Shown one piece after another: positions 14,878 to 43,425 of a stretch of 64,000 bases of DNA. A program made the translations under genes and the position numbers. This stretch comes from Halogeometricum pallidum JCM 14848 (GTDB lineage: Archaea > Halobacteriota > Halobacteria > Halobacteriales > Haloferacaceae), in the NCBI RefSeq assembly GCF_000337095.1, contig NZ_AOIV01000041.1, forward strand, positions 118,977 to 182,976. Direction: 5' to 3'. The notes beneath the pieces were generated by a model. It had not been told where the DNA came from, did not search any database, and saw only the letters and a list, made by a program, of their open reading frames with translations. How positions within the stretch are numbered: the stretch's first letter is position 1; each line of letters opens with the position of its first letter.

Positions 14878-15606
14878 TTACCGCTCGGCTTCGGCGCGTT
14901 CGGCCATCGCGTCGCGCGCGCCCTCCACCGTCTCACGAACGGCGTCGACGCCCTCGTCGTGCAGGAGGTCGCCGACGACGACCACGTCGGTGTGGCTGCC
15001 CATCTCGTACGCCGACTCGTAGTCGTGGATGCCGCCGCCGTAGAACAGCGTCGACTCGTCCAAGGCGTCGTACGCGGCGTGCACCTTCTCCGTGTCGCCG
15101 AACGTGCCGGAGTACTCGATGTAGACTATCTCCTGACCGAACATCCGCTCGGCGACGGCCGCGTAGGAGGCCACGTCGTCGACCGCGAGGTCGCAGTTGG
15201 CGTCGGTGAGTTGCGCGACGGAGGCGTCGGGGTTGAGCACGATGTACGCCTCGGTGTGCGTGCGGTCCCAGTCCATCCCGTTCTCGATGCGGACCCACTC
15301 CTTGTGGGCGCCGGTGATCCAGAAGGCGTCCTTCGCGTTGAACACCGTCGGGATGAGGTAGCCGTCGAGGGCGTCGTCGTCGACGACGACCCCGGGGTTC
15401 GACGGTTCTTGGTACAGCGGTACGTCGTACTCGGCGCAGGCGTCGACGACCCGTTGCATCTTGTCTGCGGTGATGTCGAGGGTGCCGCCGATTTCGATGG
15501 CGTCCGTCCCGGTCTGACAGACGTCCTCGAACGTCTCGTCGCCGACGAGGTCTTTATCTGGGTCGACCTTGAGGATGTGATTCCACTCGGTCCAGGGGCC
15601 GGTCAT
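14878..15606 (-). CDS. Geranylgeranylglyceryl phosphate synthase
   Basis: 242 residues from the ATG at 15606 ([18 protein letters not shown]). It has the PcrB/GGGPS TIM-barrel motifs: [24 protein letters not shown], the IEYSGT loop, and the phosphate-binding [11 protein letters not shown] and [12 protein letters not shown]. It joins geranylgeranyl diphosphate to glycerol-1-phosphate, forming the first ether bond of archaeal membrane lipids. The promoter TTAAAAAT (15631-15638 on the reverse strand) is about 29 bp upstream, suggesting a leaderless transcript. Confidence 0.95.
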
Positions 15607-15630
15607 TGGGCGTACTACCACCGGGAGGCG

Positions 15631-15638
15631 TTAAAAAT
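15631..15638 (-). promoter_or_regulatory. TATA-like element of the GGGP synthase gene
   Basis: ATTTTTAA on the minus strand is centred about 29 bp upstream of the ATG at 15606. That is the spacing seen for leaderless haloarchaeal transcripts. Confidence 0.5.
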
Positions 15639-15659
15639 GACGCGGATGGGTCGTGAAGA

Positions 15660-16655
15660 CTATTCACCGAACCCGTGAAGTGCCCGATGTTCTCTTAGAT
15701 ACAGTCTTGCAGGATGCTTGTTTTCGTCCTCGGGGAGGTCGATTTGTCTTCCCTCAAGTGATTCGAAGTCCTCGTGTCCCGGTACCGACTCGCAGCTCTG
15801 TACCAACACTCGGAACTGATCATTGATGGCCAACCAACCCTTGTCGAGGGCCCAGTGGTGTAGTCTGCACAACGCGAGTCCATTACGAACGTCATCCTTT
15901 CCCTTGTGACTCTTCGGATAGATATGTGCGGCTTCGACCTCCGGTAGACCGTTCGGTGATAGCCGATACGACCCACAGATTGCACACCGATTATCGTAGA
16001 GAGACTTCACGTCTCGGGCAAATACCGCAGAACGCTCCTTTCGTCGTTGTTCCGAGTACGACTGTGATTCGGTCAGTTCTGGTGGCGACTCCAACTGTGC
16101 ATCCAGTTCCCGCTTTTCGATATCTGCTGCAGTCGGAGACACATCTACTGAGTGTTCGTCAACGAATCCTTTGACTGATCCATAGGCTGATTCGATGCTT
16201 CGCACAGCCTCTCCAGTCAACCGCATGAAATTCTGTGGGTGCCCCCGACTGTGTCCGGCGTGTTCGTGGTGTACCTCTCGGCTGTCGATGTCGACTGACT
16301 GCACCTCGTCGAGATAGATAATGTTGGGCCACAGTTCATCATTGTTCTCTCGCAGTCCGATTTTGTATTCTGTCCAGAGGTGAGCTGCGAGTGGCTCGTT
16401 GACTTCCCGTCCAATCACGCGTGCAGCGTACTCGTACCGGTTCTCACCCAGGTAGAAAAGCAGTATATCTCCCGCAGACATCCTGCCGAGAAATCGATCC
16501 GCTCCGGGAGAGACGCCCCAGATTGATGCGGGGTCACCGACGTACGCATCGGTGTGCTGCGCGTAGCGACTTCTGGGAACTCCATTGATGACGGTATCGT
16601 GGAGATGCTCTTGTGCCTTTGAGTTGCTACAAGGAACGACGAAGACTTCGACCAT
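15660..16655 (-). CDS. PUA/EVE-like domain fused to HNH endonuclease, probable modified-DNA restriction enzyme
   Basis: 331 residues from the ATG at 16655 (MVEVFVVPCSNSK). The first 150 residues resemble a PUA/EVE-like ligand-binding fold (MSAGDILLFYLGEN, YEYAARVIGREV, WPNIIYLDEVQSVDI, FMRLTGEAVRSIES). A linker leads to an HNH domain: Cys224-x2-Cys227, EAAHIYPKSHKG with His244, NGLALCRLHHWALDKG with Asn258, Cys263 and His266/His267. Such fusions are known among enzymes that cleave DNA with modified bases, so a defence role is inferred. GC is roughly 50% by eye against high-60s nearby, and codon use differs, which suggests horizontal transfer. It stands alone between GGGP synthase and topA. 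Confidence 0.75.
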   Translation of the reverse strand: MVEVFVVPCSNSKAQEHLHDTVINGVPRSRYAQHTDAYVGDPASIWGVSPGADRFLGRMSAGDILLFYLGENRYEYAARVIGREVNEPLAAHLWTEYKIGLRENNDELWPNIIYLDEVQSVDIDSREVHHEHAGHSRGHPQNFMRLTGEAVRSIESAYGSVKGFVDEHSVDVSPTAADIEKRELDAQLESPPELTESQSYSEQRRKERSAVFARDVKSLYDNRCAICGSYRLSPNGLPEVEAAHIYPKSHKGKDDVRNGLALCRLHHWALDKGWLAINDQFRVLVQSCESVPGHEDFESLEGRQIDLPEDENKHPARLYLREHRALHGFGE

Positions 16656-16694
16656 CCACAGCAAAACCCCAGCAACTGACAAATAACTATCTGA

Positions 16695-19202
16695 TTAGTC
16701 TGCGGACGTCTGCCACTTCCGCACCGTATCCGGTCCAACGCCGTCCATCAGGTCGGCTAAGGCGTCGGGTTCGGCCTCCTTCAGCGACGGCACGTCCTCG
16801 ACGCCGGCGGCCTTCAGTTTCTCCGCCGTCTTCTCGCCGATGCCCGTCACGCTCTCCAGTTGCGAGCCGTCGACCTGTTCGGCCTGATACTCTCTGTAGT
16901 TGCAGATGGGACAGCCGAGGTCCCACGGCTCCCTGTCGCTGTCCTCGTAGGTGATCTGAATCTTCGGCAGGTCGTGCTCCTCGCAGTCCTCGTCGGTCAC
17001 CTCGATGTCGCCGCGGCGCGGGAGGGGCAGCGAGTAATCGCAGTCGGGGTAGCGCGTGCAGCCGACCAGTCGAGAGCCGGAACGGAGCCGCTTTATCGCC
17101 AGTTCGCCGCCGTGTTCGTCGCCGCACTCCGGACAGACGCCGATGACGAGGTCCTCCTCCTCGTCGGCCTCCTCGGCCTTACAGAGCGGACAGCCGTGGA
17201 CGAACGTCTTCCGCCCGGCGAGCATCTTCACGTGGTTCAGGTCGTGTTCCTCGCAGGACTCCTCAAGGATGAGCGGCTTGCCCGTCGACGGCAGCGGCAG
17301 CGTGTACGTGCAGTCGGGGTAGCCGTCGCAACCGATGAAGTACGACCCGTGACGGCTCTTTCTTATGACCAGGTCGTGGTCGGACTCGGGGCACTGCCCG
17401 ACGGTCTTGTCCGCCTTCAGCGACTTCTGGAGGTGTTTGCCCACCTCGTCGCCGGACTCCATCAACCCCTCGAACACGCCTTCGAGAATCTCTCTGGACT
17501 CCTCGGTGACGTCGTCGAGGGTGGTCTCTCCGCGCGTGATGGCCTGCATGTCCTCCTCCAGTTGGGCGGTCATCTCCTCGCTCACGATGAGTTCGGCGAA
17601 CTCCTCGGACGCCTCGACGACGGCGCGGGCGAGTCGGGTCGGGCGCGGCGGGTCGCTCTCGATGTAGTTGCGGTCGTAGAGCTTCTGAATCACGTCGTGC
17701 CGCGTCGCCTTCGTCCCGATGCCCATCTGCTCCATCGTCTCGATGAGGCGCGACTGGCCGTAGCGGCGGGGCGGTTGCGTCTGCTTGGCCTCCATCTCCG
17801 TGTCCGTCACGGCGAGTTCCTCGCCCTCCTCCACGTCGGGGACGAACGACTCGCTGGAGTTAAAGTACGGGTACACCGCGTGGTAACCCTCTTTCACGAG
17901 GCGCTTGCCGTTGGCCTTCAGCGAGAGGCCGGCCGCATCGGCGACGACGCGCAGGTGCTCCCACTCGGCGGACTCCGCGACGGTGGCGAAGAAGCGCCGG
18001 ACGACGAGTTCGTACACCTCCCACTCGTCCTCTGTGAGGTCCGCGCGTGAGGGGAGTTCGCCCGTCGGGTGGATGGGCGGGTGGTCGGTCGTCTCGTTGT
18101 CGCCGGCGGTCGGTTCTATCTCCTCTTGGTCGAGGAGCGACTCCGCGTCCTCGGCGAACGTCCGGTTCGCGGTGAAGGCGTCGAGCAGTTCCCGCGGGTC
18201 GAGGTCCTCGGGGTAGACGGTGTTGTCCGTCCGCGGGTAGGTCATATAGCCCGCGGTGTAGAGGTCCTCCGCGATGCTCATCGCACGCTGGGCGGAGTAG
18301 CCGATGGACCCCGCGGCGCGGATGAACTGCGTCGTGTTGAACGGGGCCGGCGGGTCGTCCGTCCGGGTGCGGCGGCGGACCGAGGTGACCGTCGCCGTCT
18401 CCGCCCCTCGAAGCGTCTCGTACGCCGCCTCGGCGTCGTCGCCGTCCCAGACGCGTTCGGCTTCGTTGTCGTCCTCGTCAAGGTAGAAGTACTGCGCCTC
18501 GAACGACTCCGAGCCCTTCTCCAGGTCGGCGAACAGTTCCCAGTAGTCCTCGGGGTCGAACGCGTCTATCTCGCGTTCGCGGTCGACGATGAGTTTGAGG
18601 GTGGGCCCCTGCACCCGGCCGACGGAGATGAAGTCGTCGCCGAGTTGGCGCGCCGACAGCGAGAGGAATCGGGTGAGCGCCGCCCCCCACACCAGGTCGA
18701 CGATCTGTCTGGCCTCGCCCGCCGCGGCGAGGTTGAAGTCGAGTTCGTCGGGGTTCTCGAACGCCTCGGTCACCTCTCGTTGGGTGATAGAGGAGAAGCG
18801 CACCCGGTCGACGGGCACCTCCTCGTTGACCTCGCGGACGAGTTCGTACGCCTCCTTGCCGATGAGTTCCCCCTCGCGGTCGTAGTCGGTGGCGATGACG
18901 ACGCGGCGGGCGTTGCGGGAGAGTCGCCGCAGGGCGGCGACGATGTTCTCCTGCGTCGGGTGCTTGTCGATGGGCGCGTCGATGAGTTCCACCGGTTCGA
19001 CGTCGCGCCAGTCGTTGTACTCCGGCGGGAAGTCCACGCCGACGACGTGGCCCGACAGCCCGATGCAGCGTTTCCCCCCCCACTTGTAGACGTTCACGCC
19101 GTTGACGCGTTCGGCCTCCGCGGACTCGCCGCTCAGGATGTCGGCGATGCGCCGAGCGGCGTTGTCCTTCTCGGTGATGATCAGTTCCGGACCCTTACTC
19201 AT
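16695..19202 (-). CDS. topA: DNA topoisomerase I (type IA) with zinc ribbons and C-terminal HhH
   Basis: 835 residues from the ATG at 19202 (MSKGPELIITEKDNAARRIA). The Toprim domain (GLSGHVVG, IATDYDREGELIG) is followed by the type IA core with the catalytic Tyr322 in AGYMTYPRTDNT and the EMTAQLEEDM region. The C-terminus has several Cys-rich zinc-ribbon modules (GCDGYPDCTYTLPLP, CPLCK, CPECGDEHGGELAIK, CTRYPDCDYS, CPICNYREY). It ends in a helix-hairpin-helix pair (VTGIGEKTAEKLKAAGVED and the final VGPDTVRKW). It relaxes negative supercoils. The HhH tail may add DNA binding. It is followed on the same strand by the low-GC nuclease gene after 39 bp. Confidence 0.96.
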   Translation of the reverse strand: MSKGPELIITEKDNAARRIADILSGESAEAERVNGVNVYKWGGKRCIGLSGHVVGVDFPPEYNDWRDVEPVELIDAPIDKHPTQENIVAALRRLSRNARRVVIATDYDREGELIGKEAYELVREVNEEVPVDRVRFSSITQREVTEAFENPDELDFNLAAAGEARQIVDLVWGAALTRFLSLSARQLGDDFISVGRVQGPTLKLIVDREREIDAFDPEDYWELFADLEKGSESFEAQYFYLDEDDNEAERVWDGDDAEAAYETLRGAETATVTSVRRRTRTDDPPAPFNTTQFIRAAGSIGYSAQRAMSIAEDLYTAGYMTYPRTDNTVYPEDLDPRELLDAFTANRTFAEDAESLLDQEEIEPTAGDNETTDHPPIHPTGELPSRADLTEDEWEVYELVVRRFFATVAESAEWEHLRVVADAAGLSLKANGKRLVKEGYHAVYPYFNSSESFVPDVEEGEELAVTDTEMEAKQTQPPRRYGQSRLIETMEQMGIGTKATRHDVIQKLYDRNYIESDPPRPTRLARAVVEASEEFAELIVSEEMTAQLEEDMQAITRGETTLDDVTEESREILEGVFEGLMESGDEVGKHLQKSLKADKTVGQCPESDHDLVIRKSRHGSYFIGCDGYPDCTYTLPLPSTGKPLILEESCEEHDLNHVKMLAGRKTFVHGCPLCKAEEADEEEDLVIGVCPECGDEHGGELAIKRLRSGSRLVGCTRYPDCDYSLPLPRRGDIEVTDEDCEEHDLPKIQITYEDSDREPWDLGCPICNYREYQAEQVDGSQLESVTGIGEKTAEKLKAAGVEDVPSLKEAEPDALADLMDGVGPDTVRKWQTSAD

Positions 19203-43350: not shown

Positions 43351-43425
43351 AGCGGGATGGGATAGCCAGGAGATTCCGCCGGGCTCATAACCCGGAGATC
43401 GGTAGTTCAAATCTACCTCCCGCTA
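43351..43425 (+). tRNA. tRNA-Met initiator (CAT anticodon)
   Basis: The 75-nt sequence folds to a full cloverleaf. The acceptor stem is AGCGGGA (43351-43357) with TCCCGCT (43418-43424) and discriminator A43425. The anticodon loop is CTCATAA. The anticodon stem CCGGG/CCCGG contains the three G:C pairs typical of initiators, and the A1-U72 pair agrees with archaeal initiator tRNA. CCA is not encoded. The T arm is GTAGTTCAAATCTAC. Its 3' end recurs in degenerate form downstream (see repeats). Confidence 0.97.

Follow-up and report, generated by a model that had tools for sequence, protein, structure and literature searches.

In the haloarchaeon Halogeometricum pallidum JCM 14848, the gap between topA and the gene for GGGP synthase (GGGPS) holds a gene that probably encodes a stand-alone type IV restriction enzyme, in which an N-terminal YTH-like domain would read N6-methyladenine (m6A) in DNA and a C-terminal HNH domain would cut nearby. 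A stand-alone type IV-like enzyme had been proposed when the same DNA was first inspected by sequence (hereafter the original prediction), and two independent homologies bear this out: the HNH half shares 50% identity with a modification-dependent endonuclease, and the reader is kin to an McrB N-domain. From these homologies we infer a type IV mode of action. Modification-dependent endonucleases are a known kind of enzyme; for the combination of a YTH-like reader with an HNH nuclease we found no characterized example in the open-access literature, and in the papers searched YTH-HNH fusions are named once, as future work (PMC11037411).

A GC-poor gene between two housekeeping genes

The window is the whole stretch of DNA that was analyzed (64,000 nucleotides). 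The features discussed below are the following:

15660..16655, minus strand: YTH-HNH gene, candidate stand-alone type IV (modification-dependent) restriction endonuclease, 331 aa (ORF, HNH_2, profile matches)
16161..16655, minus strand: reader domain, residues 1-165, PUA superfamily, TgMcrB/YTH-like (profile match to 6p0f/6p0g; alignment of 35 relatives)
16047..16160, minus strand: linker, residues 166-203, between the two matched domains
15669..16046, minus strand: C-terminal nuclease half, residues 204-329 (HHPV4I, 50% identity over 169 aa; TagI HNH)
15822..15986, minus strand: HNH_2 core, residues 224-278 (Pfam HNH_2 and alignments)
14878..15621, minus strand: GGGPS, flanking housekeeping gene (ORF; translation more likely starts at the ATG at 15606)
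about 16695..19202, minus strand: topA, DNA topoisomerase I, 835 aa, flanking housekeeping gene (ORF)
15622..16694, no strand: GGGPS-topA gap, a variable site, occupied in other genomes by restriction genes

ORF calling of the window gave a 331-codon reading frame on the minus strand, from an ATG at 16655 to a stop at 15660; this ATG is preferred over an upstream TTG because the starts of orthologues align there. The gene is real and intact. Relatives from other genera align with it over their full length at 53-55% identity, and it is therefore not a chance ORF. It lies exactly where the original prediction had placed it, between GGGPS and topA, at 38-39 bases from either ORF, and the three genes follow each other on one strand with only these short spacers between them. 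Its direct neighbors are thus topA and GGGPS and no methyltransferase adjoins it, again as first described. In the gaps that we inspected by eye, the T-rich box ahead of the GGGPS ATG persists, which suggests that the cassette spares the promoter of GGGPS.

The gene had been singled out as GC-poorer than its surroundings, and the composition is indeed exceptional: 53.7% GC against 67.5% for the 64-kb window, with a GC3 of 0.56 against 0.90 for topA and 0.91 for GGGPS. Only 0.16% of the 996-base stretches of the window are as GC-poor, and the gene is the only run in it below 57% GC.

The C-terminal half is an HNH nuclease

Pfam HNH_2 matches residues 224-278 (E 1.3e-12). All seven residues on which the original prediction had based a complete HNH domain (C224, C227, H244, N258, C263, H266 and H267) are present, and they are invariant across four full-length relatives; C224, C227, C263 and H266 are candidates for a Zn site. 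From residue 164 onwards the protein is homologous to HHPV4I (50% identity over 169 aa), the m6A-dependent SRA-wH-HNH DNA endonuclease of Haloarcula hispanica pleomorphic virus 4 (PMC10101028). H244, N258 and H267 align, with an offset of 52, with HHPV4I H296, N310 and H319, the mutation of each of which abolishes activity (PMC10101028). Among solved structures the clear match is the HNH domain of TagI (E 1.3e-5; 2.1e-8 by profile). A phosphorothioate-dependent endonuclease was considered and rejected, as the NCBIfam model PT-DNA_restrict (NF045808) reaches 78 bits, below its cut-off of 180, and matches residues 202-324 only, that is, the HNH half.

The N-terminal half resembles the YTH domain of TgMcrB

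Residues 1-165 alone have no significant Pfam match (EVE, E 0.12). Profiles were more informative: one built from ten relatives matched the TgMcrB YTH domain (6p0f/6p0g) at 5e-5, and one built from 35 relatives matched it at E 1e-7 over 135 positions, with EVE proteins at 0.07. Pfam EVE matches weakly in 12 of the 35 reader members. The EVE-HNH enzyme VcaM4I is matched weakly, through its HNH domain only (E 0.07 by profile). No ASCH or SRA domain matches the reader profile, and the whole YTH-HNH protein has no SRA match in Pfam. We therefore set aside a canonical EVE or ASCH domain as the identity of the reader, EVE matches being weak and ASCH matches nil. An SRA domain was discarded as well, since it gave no match and TagI and HHPV4I are homologous to the protein in its C-terminal half only.

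The N-terminus had originally been called PUA/EVE-like. Its place in the PUA superfamily stands by profile; the EVE label is the less likely one, its matches being weak beside that to the TgMcrB YTH domain (E 1e-7). Fold prediction, which had been put forward as a check, gave no confident N-domain: AlphaFold2 reached a mean pLDDT of 35.5 with the window protein alone and 47.4 with two relatives added, the N-domain remaining mostly at 22-40. As this model of the N-domain is unusable, the assignment of a YTH-like fold rests on the sequence profiles, which support the PUA superfamily. The alignment of 35 relatives shows no variation at W46, G47, Y68 and F143 and almost none at W94; W46-G47 and W94 align with a W-G pair and a W in TgMcrB. 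W46, W94 and F143 are thus named here as candidates for an aromatic base pocket. By position, and in our own comparison by eye, Q141-x-F143 resembles Q128-x-Y130 of VcaM4I, described as wedge and stacking residues (PMC7897488).

The TgMcrB YTH domain binds m6A DNA, according to two papers (PMC7641849; PMC7897488). A reader that is YTH-like, of the TgMcrB type, and not a canonical EVE or ASCH domain is therefore likely to target m6A and not modified cytosine, with the reservation that prokaryotic YTH and EVE domains intergrade and are hard to separate by sequence (PMC7641849).

Reader and nuclease occur in other combinations

In other haloarchaea the reader also heads proteins of 510-760 aa with a C-terminal AAA_5 (McrB-type) ATPase, next to a gene that is McrC-like by position and appearance, with no family match; it is also found alone (about 170-200 aa). 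The HNH domain in turn follows halves that by eye are SRA-like in other proteins. Reader and HNH are thus shuffled among restriction enzymes. Three loci (L005, L006 and L010) encode an SRA-like domain (by eye), a divergent YTH/EVE-like reader and an HNH domain in one chain, and these proteins possibly read two modifications. Many genomes of one genus (g14) carry a reader homologue that is short (about 165-220 aa) and stands alone (E about 1e-19); it may be an EVE-like protein with a housekeeping role.

Among 292 class-wide genomes, full-length YTH-HNH genes were found in the window host (G000) and in G014, G095, G185, G222 and G060, the copy in G060 having one in-frame stop; G071, outside this sample, carries one too. 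Haloarchaeal plasmids hold relatives at 32-40% identity, and on rhizobial plasmids there are remoter matches that span 82% of the protein. Four scans found no relatives in viral contigs. At one locus of G185 (L207:4472-5698) about 130 bases separate a head-to-head pair of YTH-HNH genes, which are divergent in sequence.

The topA-GGGPS gap as a restriction hotspot

Of 119 family genomes, 118 yielded GGGPS, and the adjoining region was read in 112 plus the window; the counts below concern the 79 genomes in which topA lies upstream of GGGPS within the stretch read. In these the gap measures from 39 bp to 9.6 kb. Restriction genes or fragments occupy it in 27 of the 79 genomes and in 8 of 20 genera, and they are of five kinds:

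YTH-HNH: the window, L058, L064 (Haloprofundus marisrubri), L066 (Halogranum rubrum)
Reader-McrB: L059, L142, L161, L162
Type IIG/DrmMI-like Eco57I proteins: L054, L061, L128, L143, L154, plus fragments
Mrr_cat: L068 and six genomes of genus g28
DpnII R-M system: L097

Within the gaps (122 kb) the references match at 26 loci, and in 726 kb of the same loci outside them at none, a control biased by references that derive from the gaps. The idea of a unique insertion at this site was abandoned, because two other genera carry the same gene in this position and other restriction genes recur there. Had most haloarchaea carried the gene here with a GC like that of its surroundings, the original prediction would have been weakened; we found it there in 4 of the 79 family genomes, and its GC is unmatched in them, the four intact ORFs having 50-57% in contexts of about 60-66%.

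Traces of lost copies were also seen. In G086 (L057), which belongs to the genus of Halogranum rubrum, the gap retains the last ~13 codons of the gene, LQEHRALHGFSAD-stop, plus the downstream spacer, and shares 88% DNA identity over 93 bases with the Halogranum gap; this is the 3' scar of a lost YTH-HNH copy. In the gap of G102 a fragment of an HNH C-terminus is left. The gene thus turns over in place. Both vertical inheritance with loss and repeated acquisition were considered for its presence here: a locus common to three genera and the 3' scar in a Halogranum-group genome speak for the former, a low GC in every host for the latter. The hotspot is not anchored to a tRNA gene here, as none lies near the topA-GGGPS site; the sole tRNA gene of the window is tRNA-Met (CAT) at 43351-43425. 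In gaps of L053-L164, stretches of DNA around toxin-antitoxin-like genes (DUF5615/PIN-like by eye) are shared among several genera.

Candidate adenine methyltransferases are depleted in reader genomes

An enzyme that cuts m6A DNA should not coexist with adenine methylation by its host, and fewer adenine methyltransferases are therefore predicted in reader genomes. With the reader scored as present at E <= 1e-50 (41 of 292 genomes) and candidate adenine methyltransferases defined by PF02384 at 1e-40, PF02086 at 1e-15 and PF07669 at 1e-12, any candidate was found in 25/41 reader genomes versus 222/251 others (Fisher p 5e-5), an association that is correlational and comes mostly from YTH-McrB genomes. 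Stratified by family, over the 290 assignable genomes, the odds ratio is 0.12 (p 3e-7). YTH-HNH genomes show the same tendency, with any candidate in 2/6 versus 245/286 (p 0.006) and PF02384/PF02086 in 0/6 versus 157/286 (p 0.009). C5-methyltransferases, taken as a control in a sample of a different size, are not significantly depleted (15/41 vs 53/119, p 0.46; stratified OR 0.56, p 0.23). Within the 160 genomes of that control sample, which was enriched by design in methyltransferase-free controls, the m6A difference has a p of 0.06.

The host genome itself encodes one NPPY-motif methyltransferase (L210:46-3072, G000:C35; 1008 aa, Eco57I/N6_Mtase match). This counts against m6A reading, because a nuclease that cuts at m6A regardless of context should not tolerate it. 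Next to the methyltransferase stands a gene that may serve in restriction.

Proposed mode of action and alternatives

In the mechanism that we propose, the YTH/EVE-like domain at the N-terminus scans duplex DNA and flips a modified base, most likely N6-methyladenine, into an aromatic pocket to which W46, W94 and F143 may contribute. Cleavage near the site, with H244, N258, H267 and a metal ion, would then fall to the HNH domains at the C-terminus, which probably act as a dimer. Adenine-methylated foreign DNA, be it from a virus, a plasmid or a methylating neighbor, would in this manner be destroyed with no need for a partner methyltransferase, ATPase or toxin. We see the gene as one of several interchangeable topA-GGGPS restriction cassettes, gained and lost in situ.

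The strongest competitor keeps this architecture and the restriction role and makes modified cytosine (5mC, 5hmC or 4mC) the target of the reader, on the model of the EVE domain of VcaM4I. VcaM4I is itself an EVE-HNH enzyme (PMC7897488) and EVE readers bind 5mC/5hmC; moreover, EVE is the sole widely recurrent Pfam match (12 of 35 members), and the two prokaryotic domain types are not cleanly separable by sequence (PMC7641849). However, the profile favors TgMcrB (E 1e-7) over EVE proteins (0.07), VcaM4I is reached through the HNH domain only, and it is adenine methyltransferases that are depleted in reader genomes, cytosine-5 methyltransferases not significantly so. We thus regard cytosine reading as rather unlikely.

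Much less probable is that the reader senses modified RNA, with the protein cutting RNA or serving in RNA quality control or abortive infection. Eukaryotic YTH domains do read m6A in RNA, and the YTH-like domains of the CoCoNuT type IV systems are predicted RNA sensors (PMC11090510), but HHPV4I, with which the HNH half shares 50% identity, cuts DNA, the hotspot companions are DNA restriction systems, and the TgMcrB reader binds DNA (PMC7641849). Least of all do we expect an HNH enzyme of another sort that reads no methylated base, such as a phosphorothioate-dependent restriction enzyme or a homing-type nuclease: a methyl-base reader is what the N-terminus matches, the flanking genes are unsplit, and the 78 bits by which PT-DNA_restrict does match the C-terminal half are far under the cut-off and concern the HNH half only.

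A wider picture can also be sketched, which we offer tentatively. The YTH-HNH class, together with the reader-McrBC systems, may police adenine methylation across haloarchaea, reader lineages may lose or exclude adenine methyltransferases, and the gap may swap systems that make m6A (type IIG, DpnII R-M) with systems that destroy it (YTH-HNH, YTH-McrBC, perhaps Mrr). The apparent avoidance of adenine methyltransferases by the reader offers a rule for type IV restriction that can be tested at the level of populations. The topA-GGGPS gap, for its part, is a fixed spot in which to look for new archaeal defense genes. To our knowledge, readers of m6A in DNA are few. The YTH-HNH protein is a small, single-chain, salt-adapted candidate, each half of which has a characterized homologue, and it could become a probe for adenine methylation.

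Comparison with known systems

HHPV4I shares with the window protein the HNH half, the catalytic triad with its spacing and a haloarchaeal setting, but it reads m6A with a winged helix behind an inactive SRA domain, whereas the YTH-HNH protein has neither and carries a YTH-like domain instead. The reader half has its closest solved relative, by profile, in the YTH domain of Thermococcus gammatolerans McrB, where it sits on a GTP-dependent motor that needs McrC and is not fused directly to an HNH domain as it is here. VcaM4I (6yex; PMC7897488) is similar in build, with a PUA-superfamily reader followed by HNH in about 310-330 aa and no methyltransferase partner, but its EVE domain reads 5mC/5hmC. 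The SRA-HNH enzyme TagI (6ghs; PMC6212794) resembles the protein in its HNH core and differs in its N-terminus, an SRA domain that reads 5mC/5hmC. WP_152943818, from a plasmid of Natronorubrum aibiense, has the same architecture at 40% identity over 99%, but it is plasmid-borne and annotated merely as an HNH endonuclease. On a plasmid of this species (L214; NZ_CP045489.1) the YTH-HNH relative has a DUF262 (GmrSD-like) gene as its neighbor and a TIR-domain gene nearby, which makes a small defense cluster.
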